NCBI GenBank assembly: GCA_003252375.1
Contig: QKEJ01000175.1
Location: 1 to 61,824 of the forward strand
Origin: Halodesulfovibrio sp.
Lineage (GTDB): Bacteria > Desulfobacterota > Desulfovibrionia > Desulfovibrionales > Desulfovibrionaceae
Direction: 5' to 3'
Length of the DNA stretch: 61,824 bases
Below, piece by piece: positions 51,663 through 58,038 of this stretch (the stretch's first letter is position 1; each line of letters starts with the position of its first letter). Position numbers and translations under genes: made by a program. Below the pieces are notes generated by a model. That model had not been told where the DNA came from. It saw only the letters and a list, made by a program, of their open reading frames with translations, and searched no databases.

Positions 51663-52862
51663 ATGAAAAAACAGAAAGAACCTCTCTTTGCGTCCGTACT
51701 CGTCCTCGCCGGACTGGACGGCGTTGCTTCCATAGACCGGAGTGCCCTGCACGGCATGGGCGTCCGCCATGTGCGCATCATGTCCTCCGGCAAGGAGGCA
51801 GCACACCTGCTGGCACGTCAGGCCCGCGGGGAGCATTCCGACCGGAATGATGCGCCCCCGGTGGACCTTGTCATCTGCGACAGCACCCTTTCCGACATGC
51901 GCGGCATCCAGTTTGTCCGCATTCTGCGCACCCACCCGCGTCTGGCGACCATGCCCGTCATTGTCGCTTCGGCCGGCGCCTCGCGCAAGGAGGTCATTGC
52001 CGCCGTTTCCGCAGGGTGCTCGGGATTTCTGCTGCGCCCCTACACCACCGACGCCTTTGCCGAACAGCTAGAGCTGGCGGCACGCGCCCTGCCCCAAGCA
52101 GGAAACAGGCTCATGGCGCACGCTGCACAGGCCGCACAGGCCATGGACACCCGCGATTTCGAAACCGCGCTTCGCTCGTTCCAGGGTGTGGTCAGCGCAG
52201 CAAAGCCCAAGGCAGAACAGCTGTACGACGAGGGAATGCACCGGCTGGAAGACGGCGACTTCAGTGGCGCCATTACTGCCTTCAACCGGGCCGTACGCCT
52301 GAACGTGCTGTACGCGGAGGCCTATGTGGGACTGGCCCGGGCATGGCGCGCCAAGGGAGAACCGAAGCAGGCCCAGAAGTACCTGCGCCTCGCTGGTGAG
52401 GCCTATTCCCGCCTGCAACGCTTTGCGGAAGCAAGAGGCGTGTTCCAGCAACTGGCCAGGGAACGCCCGAACATGGGCAACCCCCTGACGGGCATGGGAA
52501 CGACCCTTTTGCAGCAGGGCGACTACACGGGCGCGGCCAAGGCCTTTGCGGAAGGCAGCAGGCTTTCTCCGGACACCGACATCAACACCCACATTGCGCG
52601 CGCCTGCCACTTTACGGACAAGCCCGTGGCAACGGCCAAGCATCTCTGCCTTGCCATGGAGCGGCTGGGCGAACAGGCATTGGCGGAACGCGTCTACAAG
52701 CGCCTGCTGGAAGAACCCAAGAAGCCCGACGCCTCCCTCGCGCGGCCGATCCTTTCCCGGTTCCCCCGCCTGCATGAGCTGGTCAGCGTGGTGCGCTACA
52801 CCCTTCGGGCCTACAAGGACGCACCGGCACCGCAGAACCTTGCCGACGACATGGCAGCCTGA
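51663..52862 (+). CDS. Receiver-like domain with TPR repeats
   Basis: The 399-residue protein begins with a receiver-like domain (about 10-145). DLVICDSTLSDMRG carries the candidate phospho-Asp73, MPVIVASAG the switch residue region, and FLLRPYTT ends it. The usual acidic pair after strand 1 is absent and the invariant Lys is Arg, so it is probably not a normal phosphorylation switch. The rest (about 150-380) is tetratricopeptide-type helices, including AEQLYDEGMHRLEDGDFSGAITAFNRAVRLN and GMGTTLLQQGDYTGAAKAFAEGSRLSP. This order suggests a scaffold or adaptor that senses a partner. It is monocistronic with its own terminator. Confidence 0.85.
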   Translation: MKKQKEPLFASVLVLAGLDGVASIDRSALHGMGVRHVRIMSSGKEAAHLLARQARGEHSDRNDAPPVDLVICDSTLSDMRGIQFVRILRTHPRLATMPVIVASAGASRKEVIAAVSAGCSGFLLRPYTTDAFAEQLELAARALPQAGNRLMAHAAQAAQAMDTRDFETALRSFQGVVSAAKPKAEQLYDEGMHRLEDGDFSGAITAFNRAVRLNVLYAEAYVGLARAWRAKGEPKQAQKYLRLAGEAYSRLQRFAEARGVFQQLARERPNMGNPLTGMGTTLLQQGDYTGAAKAFAEGSRLSPDTDINTHIARACHFTDKPVATAKHLCLAMERLGEQALAERVYKRLLEEPKKPDASLARPILSRFPRLHELVSVVRYTLRAYKDAPAPQNLADDMAA

Positions 52863-52874
52863 CAACGACACAAC

Positions 52875-52901
52875 AAAGGCCGGGATTGCTCCCGGCCTTT
52901 T
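52875..52901. terminator. Rho-independent terminator between the REC-TPR and darP genes
   Basis: Eleven-base arms AAAGGCCGGGA and complement with a TTGC loop and T-run on the plus strand (A-run on the other side). It can serve both convergent genes. Confidence 0.87.
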
Positions 52902-52943
52902 CTTTCATGCAAACCGTCTCCAGGGCCCCTGGGCCCGAAGGGA

Positions 52944-53474
52944 TCAGTTATCCGTTTCAAGCTCCCGCAGGTAGCGGAACAGCGCGCGGGCGGACTTGGC
53001 AGGCTTGCCCGCAGTCTGCTCCTTGCGGCTGTTGCGCACGAGCTGGCGAAGATACTGCAGGTCCGCGCCCGGATAGGCTTCCAGAACATCTTCCAGAGCC
53101 CCGTCACGCTCCTGCACAAGGTCGTCCCGCAGGCGTTCCAGATGCTGGAAGTCCGCAGCGGCCGCAGCACGCCCTGCATGGTAGTCACTCAGGCGGGCTT
53201 CAATATCGGTGGTATCAATGTCGCGCAGCAGCCTGCCGATGAACTGCATCTGCCTGCGCCGGGCCTCATGCTTGGAGGCCTTGAAATATTCCTCAAAGGC
53301 GTCTTCCACGGCCTTGGGCAATCCGAAGGTGCGAATGGCAGAAAGCGGCATGCGCGCCAGATCCTCACCAATCTTCTGGCGGGCCGTGCTCCGGCGCTTC
53401 TTTTCGGACCGGCTCAGATAGCCGTCATCCTGCTCTTCATCAAAAGGCTCGAAACTGTCGAACTGGTCAGTCAT
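52944..53474 (-). CDS. darP: Ribosome-associated protein DarP (YjgA)
   Basis: The 176-residue protein matches the YjgA/DarP family, which binds late 50S ribosome intermediates. The N-terminal acidic segment is followed by LSRSEKKRRSTARQKIGEDL, and then the conserved LSAIRTFGLPKAVEDAF. The KHEARRRQMQFIGRLLRD block matches the family and the C-terminal helical part includes RLRDDLVQERDGALEDVLEAYPGADLQYLRQLVRNSRKEQ. It is highly charged and helical as expected. The gene is convergent to the REC-TPR gene and downstream of the two small paralogous genes on the same strand, but separated from them by a terminator. Confidence 0.9.
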   Translation of the reverse strand: MTDQFDSFEPFDEEQDDGYLSRSEKKRRSTARQKIGEDLARMPLSAIRTFGLPKAVEDAFEEYFKASKHEARRRQMQFIGRLLRDIDTTDIEARLSDYHAGRAAAAADFQHLERLRDDLVQERDGALEDVLEAYPGADLQYLRQLVRNSRKEQTAGKPAKSARALFRYLRELETDN

Positions 53475-53558
53475 GATTCCTCCACTGCCAAGCCCTGTAC
53501 GCTACGGCACGCGCTACGTCCAGTACCGGCTTAGCCGCGTTCCCGGCGCACGGACCTG

Positions 53559-53581
53559 AAAAAGGCGGCCAGACGGCCGCC
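53559..53581 (-). terminator. Rho-independent terminator of the paralogous gene pair
   Basis: Arms GGCGGCC/GGCCGCC with an AGAC loop, followed on the minus strand by five T residues, 15 bp after the end of the downstream paralogue. It ends the two-gene unit before darP. Confidence 0.82.
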
Positions 53582-53596
53582 CCGCACATCGTTGCA

Positions 53597-53923
53597 TCAT
53601 GATGCGTCCCGCTCCGGCGCCACCGGCTGCCACATGGCGGACGGCAGCTCCACGCTGATTTCCACGTCCCGTTCCGGCACCGAGAGCACCAGAACAAGGA
53701 TACCGGATGGCACAAGGCAGAATACGTACTGGAACAGCCTGTCATGGATAACGGAAGGCGGCACACCGGCCTCCGCGGCCACCTCCTGAGCGGCCTGTTG
53801 CAGGACCTCGGCCGCATCGGAGTGCAGGGCCAGACGGTCCGGGTCCACAATGACAACCCGTTGTTCCGGTCGCTGCACCTGCAACCGCAGGCGGATATAT
53901 TCCTGACGCATGGGAATCTGCAT
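53597..53923 (-). CDS. Uncharacterised protein, second member of a paralogous pair
   Basis: The 108-residue protein has no signal peptide or membrane segment, and no family that I recognise. It starts MQIPMRQEYIRLRLQ. It has an alpha/beta-looking core, with strand AVVIVD-like at the N-terminus, a helix, then VPSGILVLVLSVPERDVEISVELPSAMW near the C-terminus. Residues aligned with the neighbour at 54001-54336 are ungapped over 79 positions, with 25 identical by my count, including LF, C, PSG, LVL, PE, ELP and MW. AGGAG precedes the ATG at 53923. It follows the neighbour by 77 bp and shares its promoter. Confidence 0.7.
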   Translation of the reverse strand: MQIPMRQEYIRLRLQVQRPEQRVVIVDPDRLALHSDAAEVLQQAAQEVAAEAGVPPSVIHDRLFQYVFCLVPSGILVLVLSVPERDVEISVELPSAMWQPVAPERDAS

Positions 53924-54000
53924 GCCACTGCTCCTTGCCGTCATTTCAGAGATAAGCGCGCGGCTCCGATCGTCAAGCGTCCTTTCCCATGACCGGCCCC

Positions 54001-54336
54001 TCAGTTGACGTAGCGGCTTTCTCCCTTGAACATCCACATGCGGGCGGGAAGCTCCGCAAAGAGCTCAAGGCCATGCTCGGGCATGTAAATGGCCAGCACC
54101 AGAGTCCCCGAAGGCTCCACGCAATACATGTTCTCGAACAGGTGCTCCACAACCGCCTGCCCGTCCAGCCCCATGGCCTTGGCCACCTTGTGTGCGGACA
54201 GGGCAATGGCGCGCTTTCCCTCCATAATGATGAGAATGTCGCCCGCATTCACATGCACGGCACGCTGCCCTCTGTATACGGCCTCGACACGCTCCACGAC
54301 CTGAGTGACGATATGGTTATGTTCCTGTTGCTGCAT
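54001..54336 (-). CDS. Uncharacterised protein, first member of a paralogous pair
   Basis: The 111-residue protein, starting MQQQEHNHIVTQVVERVEAVYRG, has no known family that I can name. It aligns with the neighbour at 53597-53923 without a gap over 79 residues, with shared residues concentrated in LF...C.EPSG.LVL and ELPARMW. The charged C-terminus is FKGESRYVN. The ATG at 54336 has a strong AAAGGAGG upstream, and a sigma-54-type promoter lies 47-63 bp before it. The gene is cytoplasmic in appearance. It is divergent from the THI5-like/GGDEF sensor gene, with 268 bp between the starts. Confidence 0.72.
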   Translation of the reverse strand: MQQQEHNHIVTQVVERVEAVYRGQRAVHVNAGDILIIMEGKRAIALSAHKVAKAMGLDGQAVVEHLFENMYCVEPSGTLVLAIYMPEHGLELFAELPARMWMFKGESRYVN

Positions 54337-54383
54337 GGCTGCCTCCTTTGGCACGCATGAGCGTGCAGTCCTGTACGTCACAA

Positions 54384-54399
54384 TGCAACTGTGATACCA
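54384..54399 (-). promoter_or_regulatory. Sigma-54 (RpoN)-type promoter for the paralogous gene pair
   Basis: On the minus strand TGGTATCACAGTTGCA fits TGGCACG-N4-TTGCA with exact spacing: TGG at -24 and TTGCA at -12 are perfect. It is about 48 bp upstream of the ATG at 54336. Transcription from it would need an RpoN activator. Confidence 0.7.
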
Positions 54400-54604
54400 C
54401 ATTAAAAATCCCCTACTCCGGCGGCACCATAGCCATGCTTCATTACGGGAAAGATCTCACAAGCCGGATTTCGGACGCCGGGAGCGCCACCGCGGACGTG
54501 CCATGCGGAAATAATTGCTCCCTGCCGCTAATTGACACAGACATGGCCTCCACATAGTGTACAGTTATCTACTACACATCCATCAGCATCCACGGATACG
54601 GCGC

Positions 54605-56638
54605 ATGCATACCTTCCCTTCCCGCAATTCGACCCATTCCGGAAACGCACTGCCACGCCCGTGGATACGACACATGGCGGTCCTTCTGCTGCTGCTTCTT
54701 CCGGCCACGGCGCTCGCAGCACACCACCAGGTCACCCTTCAGCTTCACTGGCAGAACCAATTCGAATTTGCCGGCTATTACGCAGCTCTGGAGCATGGCT
54801 TCTACAGGGATGCCGGGCTTGATGTCACCATCCGCGAAGGGGGCCCCGGCGTTGTCCCCCTTACCCAGATGCTGCAGGGAAAAGCTGATTTCTGTGTCGG
54901 CGGTTCCGAACTGCTCCTCGCCCGGCTGCGCGGCCAGCCCGTTGTTGCCGTTGCCGCCATCTTTCAGCATTCCGCATCCACCCTGCTGGTCCGTGCCGAT
55001 TCGGGCATCTACACCCCGCAGGACCTTGGCGGGCGGGTCGTGGAAATGGGAGATCTGGAAAGCGATGCGGAAATCTTCGCTCTGCTCATGAACGAAGGAA
55101 TCACCGCCGACAAGTTCATCCATGTCCCCTCTTCCTTCACCATGGACAACATCGTGGGCAAGAAGGTCGAGGCGCTGTCCAGCTACCTTTCCAACCAGCC
55201 GTATTTCCTGAAAAAGGCTTCCATTCCCTACCGGCTTATCCGTCCCCTCTGGTACGGCATCGACTTCTACGGCGACTCCCTGTTCACTACGGAAACCTAT
55301 GCGGCCAGAAATCCGGGCATTGTCGACGCCTTTGCCCAGGCGACCCTGAAGGGGTGGGCCTATGCGCTGGGGCATCCCGATGAGCTGATCCGGACCATCG
55401 CCTCCAAGTACCCGCCATCCCTTATTCCCCGGACACAGGAGCACCTGTGGTTCGAGTACCAGGAGATAAAGAAGCTCGTCATGCCCACGGTCATCGAGAT
55501 CGGGCATATGAACCCGGGCCGGTTTAGGCACATGGCGGACACCTTTGTCCAGTTGGGGCTGGCAAAGCCGGGGTATGACCTCAGGAACTTCGTCTACCAG
55601 CCGCAGGATACCGGGCTGGACCTTACCACATGGCAGGCGCAGGTTGCGCTGTACGGCCTGCCGCTCATCGCCATCCTGCTCCTGTTCGCCCTCCTGTGCC
55701 GTTCACGCATCCGCCGGGAAAGCAACCTGCGGGTCAAGGCAGAGGACCATGCACAGACCATGACCTTCCGCCTTGAACAGGCCCTTTCCTCTCTGCAGGC
55801 AGGTTACTGGGAATGGGATCTCGAACGGGACGAACTCTACATTGACGCCAGGACAGCGGGATTTCTCAAGCTCGGCACCGCCGCAGTGGAAATGACCTCC
55901 ACAGACGCGGAAAACACACCCCTGTCTCATGCGGGCCCCTTTTTCGGGCACCTGCGCACGGCCCTTGCCGACAACGCCGCCAGCATCGTCTTTACCATCA
56001 ACGTCACGGACCGCCCCCCCCGCTGGCTCAATGTGCGGGGCGACATCCATCGAGCACGAGAGGGACACATCACCCGCCTTGCCGGAACCGTGACGGACGG
56101 AACAGTCCTGCAGAAATGCCTGAGAGACCTGCAGACCCTTTCCATGACGGATTCCGCCAGCGGCGCATCCAACCGCAGGCTGTTCTTCCGGCAGGCCGAG
56201 CAGCTCTTCGTCCATGCGCAGGAACAGGGAACCCCGGTCAGCGTCGCGCTGATTGAGATCGACCAGATACAGAGCCTGACGGAAGACGGAGGTCTTCTGG
56301 CGCTGGATTCCCTGCTGAAGGATTTTTCGGGCGTTCTGGAAGCGACCGTGCGCGCCAGTGATGTGGTGGCCCGTATCGGCAACGAAGAGTTCTTCGTACT
56401 TTTCCCCGACACGGACAAGGCGCATGCCCGCACCGTGATGGAGACCCTGCGCACCAGTGTCGATGACGCCACCTTCCATGTAGGGAATGACGAAACCCGC
56501 ATCACCTTCTCGGCCGGCGTTGCGGACTGTACCGAACTTCCGGCCACGGACTTCCGCCCCCGGGCTCTGATCTCGCTCGCGGACAGACGGCTGCACACGG
56601 CGCGCGCCTCGGGGCGGGACAGGATCATCGCCGACTAG
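54605..56638 (+). CDS. Membrane sensor: THI5/NMT1-like periplasmic domain with degenerate GGDEF
   Basis: The protein (about 677 residues) has an N-terminal signal or anchor (MAVLLLLLLPATALA, about 24-38) and a large periplasmic NMT1/THI5-like binding domain (about 40-350, with LQLHWQNQFEFAGYYAALEHGFYRDAGL). A membrane helix follows (GLPLIAILLLFALL, about 357-370), then a PAS-like region and a C-terminal GGDEF-type domain (about 515-677). The GGDEF signature is GNEEF, in VARIGNEEFFVLF, with the RxxD (RASD) before it. The early metal-binding motif is also atypical (IEIDQIQSLTED). Cyclic-di-GMP synthesis is therefore doubtful. The start is uncertain: GTG 54557, ATG 54605 or ATG 54674 are possible. 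Confidence 0.8.
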   Translation: MHTFPSRNSTHSGNALPRPWIRHMAVLLLLLLPATALAAHHQVTLQLHWQNQFEFAGYYAALEHGFYRDAGLDVTIREGGPGVVPLTQMLQGKADFCVGGSELLLARLRGQPVVAVAAIFQHSASTLLVRADSGIYTPQDLGGRVVEMGDLESDAEIFALLMNEGITADKFIHVPSSFTMDNIVGKKVEALSSYLSNQPYFLKKASIPYRLIRPLWYGIDFYGDSLFTTETYAARNPGIVDAFAQATLKGWAYALGHPDELIRTIASKYPPSLIPRTQEHLWFEYQEIKKLVMPTVIEIGHMNPGRFRHMADTFVQLGLAKPGYDLRNFVYQPQDTGLDLTTWQAQVALYGLPLIAILLLFALLCRSRIRRESNLRVKAEDHAQTMTFRLEQALSSLQAGYWEWDLERDELYIDARTAGFLKLGTAAVEMTSTDAENTPLSHAGPFFGHLRTALADNAASIVFTINVTDRPPRWLNVRGDIHRAREGHITRLAGTVTDGTVLQKCLRDLQTLSMTDSASGASNRRLFFRQAEQLFVHAQEQGTPVSVALIEIDQIQSLTEDGGLLALDSLLKDFSGVLEATVRASDVVARIGNEEFFVLFPDTDKAHARTVMETLRTSVDDATFHVGNDETRITFSAGVADCTELPATDFRPRALISLADRRLHTARASGRDRIIAD

Positions 56639-57291: not shown

Positions 57292-58038
57292 ATGCAGTAC
57301 ACGATTCATCCCATCGTCATGGGTTCAAAGGTATTCGACAAGGGCATGATGACCTATCAGCACGACTACGGTCAAAGCTACACCATCCCCATATATTGCT
57401 GGTACATAGAAGGCGGAGACAAGAAAATCCTCATAGATACCGGCGAGATGCAGCCCATCAAGTCCGAAGACCGCGAACGGGCCATCGGCGGCCCCATCCA
57501 CACCTTCGAAGAGGGGTTGGCAAAGTACGGCCTCGTGCCTGCGGATATCGACATCATCATCCACACCCACCTGCACAACGATCACTGCGAAAACGACTAC
57601 AAATGCGAAAACGCCGAAATCTACGTGCACGAGAAGGAACTGGAACACATCCACAACCCGAACCCCCTCGATTTCCGGTATCTTGAAGACTACATCGAAG
57701 ATGTGGAGGAAAACGGCCAGCTGCGCCTGATCAGCGCTTCGGAACAGGAGATCGTCCCCGGCATCCGTGTACTCCACACCCCGGCGCATACCGAAGGGGG
57801 GCTCAGCGTCTTCATCGAGACCGCCAAGGGCACCGTGGCCATAACCGGGTTCTGCATCATTGACGAAAACCTGAATCCGCCCACCGAGATACGGGCGCAG
57901 GAAATGGAGGTTATCCCTCCAGGAACATGCATCAACCCTGCGGAAAGCTACGAGATCATGCTCAAGGTCAAATCCATGGCGGACATGGTGATTGCCCTGC
58001 ATGAACCCATGTACGCCAGCATGGACTCCATAGGATAA
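57292..58038 (+). CDS. Metallo-beta-lactamase fold protein, N-acyl homoserine lactonase-like
   Basis: The 248-residue protein has the MBL-fold metal-binding motif HTHLHNDHCEND (HxHxDH, about residues 91-96), a later His in HTPAHTEGG, and the Asp/His positions further on (GFCIIDENL). It lacks a signal peptide. The length and the opening segment YTIPIYCWYIEGGDKKILIDTGE are like AttM/AiiB-type lactonases, but many MBL proteins with this look have other substrates. GGAG precedes the ATG. A terminator follows. A possible leader peptide and hairpin lie upstream. Confidence 0.85.
   Translation: MQYTIHPIVMGSKVFDKGMMTYQHDYGQSYTIPIYCWYIEGGDKKILIDTGEMQPIKSEDRERAIGGPIHTFEEGLAKYGLVPADIDIIIHTHLHNDHCENDYKCENAEIYVHEKELEHIHNPNPLDFRYLEDYIEDVEENGQLRLISASEQEIVPGIRVLHTPAHTEGGLSVFIETAKGTVAITGFCIIDENLNPPTEIRAQEMEVIPPGTCINPAESYEIMLKVKSMADMVIALHEPMYASMDSIG

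Follow-up and report, generated by a model that had tools for sequence, protein, structure and literature searches.

A tandem duplicate pair of Halodesulfovibrio in an unnamed family of small proteins that usually joins a sigma-54 type promoter to a C-terminal tail of fixed length

Sequence comparison shows that two adjacent genes of Halodesulfovibrio sp., P0001 and P0002, arose by tandem duplication; their products belong to a protein family of the order Desulfovibrionales that has no name and whose members are about 100 residues long. P0001 represents the commonest type, which usually pairs a predicted sigma-54 type promoter with a C-terminal tail of fixed length ending in Gln, His or Asn. 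P0002 falls in the sister clade, which has no tail, and a further clade, here called C, appears to have traded sigma-54 control for control by Fur. The window, i.e. the whole stretch of DNA that was analysed, comprises 61,824 nucleotides (contig QKEJ01000175.1), and the features around the pair are as follows.

52944..53474, minus strand: P0004, a DarP/YjgA ribosome assembly factor (PF04751, E 9.4e-46), lying beyond the terminator
53559..53581, minus strand: intrinsic terminator after P0002, with a 7-bp GC stem, a GTCT loop and UUUUU
53597..53923, minus strand: P0002, 108 amino acids, B type, the tail-less paralogue (stop codon included)
54001..54336, minus strand: P0001, 111 amino acids, A type, the tail-bearing paralogue (stop codon included)
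54004..54036, minus strand: C-terminal tail of P0001, i.e. the conserved Trp101 and the 10 residues after it, the last being Asn111
54342..54349, minus strand: Shine-Dalgarno site AAAGGAGG of P0001, read directly in the sequence
54384..54399, minus strand: sigma-54 type promoter site TGGTATCACAGTTGCA, 63 bases 5' of the P0001 start
54605..56638, plus strand: P0003, the divergent neighbour, with NMT1 (E 2.1e-45) and GGDEF (E 8.1e-25) matches

Both open reading frames, of 111 and 108 residues, are present where an earlier note on this DNA had placed them. The ungapped alignment reported there, with 25 identities counted over 79 residues, was recovered as a local alignment in which 26 of 85 positions are identical (E 2e-13), a value that rules out chance as the source of the similarity; the shared LF, C, PSG, LVL, PE, ELP and MW all lie within it. 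When the window's genome, which is 86.5% complete, was searched with P0001, P0002 (E 2.2e-10) was the sole other match below E 0.2. The start codon of P0001 is supported by its orthologues and by the Shine-Dalgarno site; GGAGG was seen by eye ahead of the start in 20 of the 25 family members printed, whose starts had been picked independently of it. Between two other genomes of the genus, G132 and G096, the P0001 orthologues gave dN 0.076 and dS 1.39 and those of P0002 gave dN 0.071 and dS 1.03, so that both genes are under purifying selection.

Searches of Pfam, NCBIfam and PHROGs gave nothing significant for P0001 or P0002, and among the 55 rows of the family alignment (A4) only weak and scattered matches were returned by these libraries and PADLOC. 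The earlier note knew of no named family with this core, and none was found for the pair or for the other 53 members of that alignment. Set aside as weak were PHROG 9830 for P0001 (E 0.21), five NCBIfam families (best E 0.0058, in 2 of the 55 members) and PADLOC PDC-M02B (E 0.0064, in a single member of the 55); a leucine-rich repeat chain (4r5d) reached E 0.00074, yet no stretch passed by itself, and it too was set aside. No description of the family was found in the accessible portion of the literature, PMC12316311 included.

Of 348 genomes of the order, 105 were matched by a broader profile of the family, although the match in G241 contains stops and is doubtful; a narrower profile found relatives in 80 of the 348. 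Two samples of the phylum gave 4 matching genomes of 297 and 5 of 345, all from the window's own taxonomic family, and among the genomes searched here members were found only in sulfate-reducing bacteria. The earlier description of "two uncharacterised paralogues" understated the case, the family being large and P0002 of its derived, tail-less type. A mobile or phage origin was rejected: no relative was met in viral contigs (searched with a seven-row A-type alignment), in phages (searched with P0001) or in plasmids (searched with a C-type member). The nifH gene was above the cut-off in 161 of the 348 genomes, and matched at E 1e-100 or better in 84 of the 105 family-bearing genomes against 77 of the 243 others. 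Nitrogen fixation was not used as a link, because within genus g5 the shares with nifH are alike (13 of 16 family-bearing genomes and 16 of the 20 others, counted by hand) and because four genomes of the window's genus (G079, G142, G057 and G108) possess the pair and no strong nifH match.

The members analysed number 103, namely 61 that remained once identical proteins were dropped, 40 fetched later and the two of the window; they are part of the places listed by the 105-genome search, and near-copies count as separate rows. The tree of these proteins was computed with the tail columns left out and has few columns, 36 of its 100 inner branches being open. In it the A type, that of P0001, is sister to the B type, that of P0002 (SH-aLRT 93). 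The B type, which includes G100 of another genus, forms one side of a branch (87), in agreement with the duplication proposed in the earlier note. The same note proposed a search for the pair in relatives; of the 10 genomes of the genus 9 have two copies, and the exception, G021, has one gene of the P0002 type. Clade C has 17 members and a support of 99 in this tail-free tree. Only L79, P97 and W101 are nearly invariant in the alignment.

The last residue is Gln, His or Asn in all 79 tail-bearing members (45, 28 and 6, respectively); in a background set of 570 ORFs the share is 10.2%. Counted from the conserved Trp, the protein ends after 9 or 10 residues in 74 of the 79 and after 8 or 11 in the remaining 5. 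The pattern was noticed on the first 39 members, which had been sorted by motif only, save that one C and two A members were moved by hand. All 40 members fetched afterwards obey the Q/H/N ending; these were hand-picked from the 105-genome match list, mostly from its weaker part, all are tail-bearing and some are near-copies. None of the 7 B members ends in Q, H or N. The tail is carried by every member outside the two clades B and C, and the trait needs just two changes on the tail-free tree, one in the P0002 type and one in C. As a side observation, TAG is enriched as the stop codon, with 42 of 78 tail-bearing members against 147 of 449 background ORFs, relatedness not being allowed for.

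Sigma-54 sites were scored by a single rule, which covered those whose first base lies 35 to 110 bases 5' of the start codon and did not demand GG at -24; start codons in the 103-member promoter survey, and those of the 40 later members, were set by a Shine-Dalgarno rule. A score of at least 12 out of 15 was reached by 64 of the 79 tail-bearing members, at -38 to -88, and by 4.3% of 416 control ORFs, the controls being ORFs with homologues in other loci, which may include false ORFs. No such site was found for the 7 P0002-type members or the 17 C members, and 15 of the 79 tail-bearing members are also without one. Both the GG and the GC occur in 54 of the 64 scoring sites, the -12 GC being absent at L088, while TTGCAC takes the -24 position in 9 of the 64, which belong to a single class and are near-copies. 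A conserved variant form, TTGCACG-N4-TTGCT, in which T replaces the first G of the -24 element, stands 5' of the members at L081, L110-L114 and L116-L118. A stricter, earlier scan gave scores of at least 13 for 16 of 46 members against 2.7% of 840 controls. A search of the 64 upstream regions for a shared activator site yielded no clear motif common to the classes and brought out only A/T-rich words; no conserved leader hairpin was found in the upstream regions of the family, and there was no Rfam match within 52800-55000.

At the locus itself, TGGTATCACAGTTGCA contains TGG and TTGCA with a GG-GC spacing of 10 bases and matches 9 of 12 consensus positions. The orthologous sites occupy the same place and score better, 10 of 12 at -63 in G132 and 11 of 12 at -66 in G096. 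The earlier note had called the site exact for RpoN: the two motifs and their spacing are there and the wider family favours such a promoter, while the full consensus is matched at 9 positions of 12 and the frequency of the motif in the window alone is that of chance. The exact form TGG-N8-TTGCA occurs twice in the window against 3.3 expected, and a looser sigma-54 pattern 117 times against 121 expected. Judged within the window alone, TGGTATCACAGTTGCA is no better than chance, and it is the comparative promoter data from the wider family that make it credible. The genome encodes RpoN (one Sigma54_DBD match) and has 32 Sigma54_activat matches, 30 of them strong. These figures bear on the alternative that the site is a chance match and that the pair is expressed from some other promoter. 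The window counts would be in line with it, as would the genus, in which the site is clear in 3 of the 9 pair-bearing genomes (G000, which is the window's own, G132 and G096) and the -24 GG is missing from the other 6. It is nonetheless very improbable in view of the better-scoring sites at the same place in G132 and G096, the good scores of most tail-bearing members and a pattern scan that found no sigma-70 type site at 52500-55500.

The clear terminator described in the earlier note was confirmed: GGCGGCC-GTCT-GGCCGCC forms a hairpin with five U behind it, and the fold of the 44-base stretch has -22.3 kcal/mol (z -2.8). It is absent from the list produced by the pattern scan; a GC hairpin with a T run was seen by eye at the corresponding place in G132 and G096. 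Co-regulation of P0001 and P0002 is suggested by this layout of one promoter, two genes and one terminator.

The divergent gene, which the earlier note had taken for a membrane sensor with a GGDEF-like domain, is P0003; it has NMT1 and GGDEF domains and, by eye, an apparent membrane segment. Its signature is GNEEF, a degenerate form that departs from the GG(D/E)EF of an active diguanylate cyclase. Among its orthologues, that of G021 retains GGEEF and those of G132 and G096 are degenerate. A match to P0003 at E 1e-60 was obtained in 4 of 10 genus genomes, its own included, and in none of the other 6. The sensor adjoins the pair in G000, G132 and G096 and a lone B-type gene in G021; the six genus genomes in which the -24 GG is missing are also those with no sensor match at this threshold. 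With a match in 4 of 10 genomes, the pair and its divergent sensor were rejected as a fixed unit. Elsewhere in the window, 57292-58038 encodes a protein of metallo-beta-lactamase fold, for which the highest-ranking named hits are lactonases that fall well short of their cut-offs.

On the other side, a DarP homologue lies 3' of the B-type gene in G132, G096, G079, G287, G100 (the other genus) and, by eye, G120; the order A-B-DarP is present in G000, G132, G096, G079 and G287, and by eye in G120. Neighbours of family genes vary from genus to genus, and among the 30 tested with Pfam or otherwise identified are a GAF activator, PilZ, MerR with a P-type ATPase, rubrerythrin, AAA_5, VWA-like and acyltransferase genes. 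A sigma-54 activator gene lies directly 3' of the family gene in G025, where it is of the GAF type, and in G097; the genes concerned (L075, 7029-8435; L081, 6396-7985) were recognised by GAF and Sigma54_activat domains in Pfam (L075) and by a GAFTGA motif and a BLAST match (L081), and each is a candidate activator or target. At L098 (6278-8188) a two-domain acyltransferase (Acyltransf_2 and Acetyltransf_5), a layout that we take to be that of an ornithine-lipid synthase, stands beside the family gene, and homologues of it do so in other g5 and g8 loci, e.g. L100. None of the neighbours seen is a general one, and this speaks for a stand-alone protein acting on something encoded elsewhere.

Clade C differs from the rest in its upstream regions. 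With the consensus of PMC545781, Fur boxes reaching 13 of 16 or better were found for 15 of its 17 members, as against 2 of the 79 tail-bearing members and 2.4% of controls, and the clade has neither tail nor sigma-54 site. The label C was partly defined by absence of the tail, yet the C motif occurs in no tail-bearing member, and the tail-free tree recovers the same clade (99). From the counts of sigma-54 sites and Fur boxes by class, one clade appears to have swapped the former for the latter. Fur-class genes were found near genes for a MerR regulator and a P-type ATPase (G025) and near rubrerythrin (G094), and at L078 (5917-7833) a Fur-class gene is flanked by two PilZ-domain genes. At L071 (6704-9695) and L103 (6433-8874) the C-type gene has genes for an AAA_5 ATPase and a DUF2201/VWA-like protein behind it, the neighbours at L103 being equated with those of L071 by BLAST only. 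The accessible part of PMC545781 gives a Desulfovibrio operon with a Fur box, 392971-392970-392969, as three hypothetical proteins that include MoxR-like and CoxE-like members. The arrangement at these loci and in G106, where a C-type gene precedes an AAA_5 ATPase and a DUF2201/VWA-like protein, resembles that operon; this likeness of 392971 to the C class is one of layout, and that part of the source names no family for 392971.

AlphaFold2 models were obtained for P0001 (55 sequences; mean pLDDT 83.6, pTM 0.72) and for a C member (46 sequences; mean pLDDT 86.7, pTM 0.74). Both share a core in which two strands and then two helices precede four further strands, with an additional N-terminal helix in P0001 and a short additional strand in the C member; the two models are not independent, because their alignments overlap. 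Confidence in the P0001 tail is low, the mean pLDDT being 71 over residues 101-110 and the last residue having 37. At a threshold of E 0.001 Foldseek matched neither model to a PDB entry, and a search of viral models with one of them was equally negative. The chains 1udi_I (Ugi; Z 3.7, rmsd 4.2, 66 residues aligned) and 1sxj_G (sliding clamp; Z 3.1, rmsd 3.8, 66 aligned) scored too low to be used. The absence of a fold match would not in itself make this a new fold.

The best explanation as a whole, which we favour tentatively, is that these proteins may be cytoplasmic, inducible regulators that bind other proteins, with a C-terminal docking key and mixed oligomers of P0001 and P0002. A sigma-54 activator would sense a nutrient or stress signal and the regulator would then be made; the family protein would bind another protein, its free C-terminus serving as the docking key. 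P0001, with the key, and the keyless P0002 would be made together and would assemble into mixed oligomers, akin to the heteromer that the earlier note had suggested, in which P0002 would tune the number of keys per complex. The Fur-controlled clade would have lost the key and probably changed its target. One point in favour of a regulator is that library searches found no known enzyme family. A more specific form of the proposal, in which a sigma-54 induced class inserts a ruler-like key into a conserved partner, the ratio of the pair sets the output and one clade has been rewired to iron, is doubtful.

Instead of binding proteins, the family could consist of small DNA-binding regulators, the two central helices being a helix-turn-helix and the later strands a wing. 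The spacing of a small residue and a Gly in the two helices is, by eye, helix-turn-helix-like; HTH_36, Sigma70_r4, HTH_28, HTH_30, HTH_10 and HTH_20 each matched weakly in one of the 55 members, homeodomain chains were returned at E 1.1 (1wi3) and E 1.3 (2mw8), and the top viral fold match (E 0.42) is a helix-turn-helix protein. Every one of these matches is far below significance, the pI is 4.3-6.0 in 33 of 39 tail-bearing members and Foldseek found nothing at E 0.001 in a PDB that is rich in winged helices, and we regard DNA binding as quite unlikely. For the tail there are two further readings, both serious rivals of the docking key. The C-terminal residue might be a degradation signal: the proteins would be produced only as long as the sigma-54 activator is on, and would be short-lived because an ATP-dependent protease that recognises the free C-terminus removes them, P0002 and the Fur class being stable; retention of the terminal residue in every tail-bearing member examined, the poor confidence of the P0001 model at that end and the coincidence of the tail with inducible-type promoters would suit a degron, for which the near-constant spacing from the Trp is unexpected, and we know of no protease rule for a terminal Q, H or N. 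This we consider unlikely. Much the same probability is given to a structural tail, whose last side chain and carboxylate would cap the protein's own fold or a dimer interface; the ligand of the family, bound when nutrients are limiting, would then be a small molecule or a metal. The constancy of the Trp-to-end distance, which could equally mean packing on the protein itself, agrees with such a cap, and the metal-related genes near some Fur-class members (G025, G094), together with sigma-54 and Fur control, fit a metal or ligand; against these stand the two clades that keep the core without the tail and the want of a conserved set of ligand residues beyond the three nearly invariant positions.

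Among known systems, DsrC/TusE proteins are also of about 105 residues, typical of sulfate reducers and endowed with a conserved C-terminal arm; they are defined by a profile match and by C-terminal cysteines. Identity with them was rejected, as no DsrC/TusE match in Pfam was found among the 55 members and the tail ends in Q, H or N and not in Cys; what the two have in common is no more than the notion of a docking tail. Small orphan proteins driven by stress promoters are known already, and no tie between a promoter class and a ruler-like C-terminus was found in the accessible literature. In genus g38, which we take, as a guess, to be the Desulfovibrio vulgaris group, each of the five matching genomes has a single match, which lacks the tail and is of the B type, and in G100, the single g38 genome scored, no sigma-54 site was found. 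D. vulgaris Hildenborough has many sigma-54 promoters, 37 activators and 8 operons of unknown function (PMC4641369), and the accessible portion of that regulome study describes no small protein family of such kind.

The family appears to join a recurrent sigma-54 input, for which one clade has Fur boxes instead, to a small domain with an almost invariant last residue. Such a coupling of promoter type and C-terminus would make function testable by changing a single residue. The family may also represent a candidate output for the sigma-54 regulons of sulfate-reducing bacteria, which are partly of unknown function, as the 8 operons reported in the accessible part of PMC4641369 indicate.
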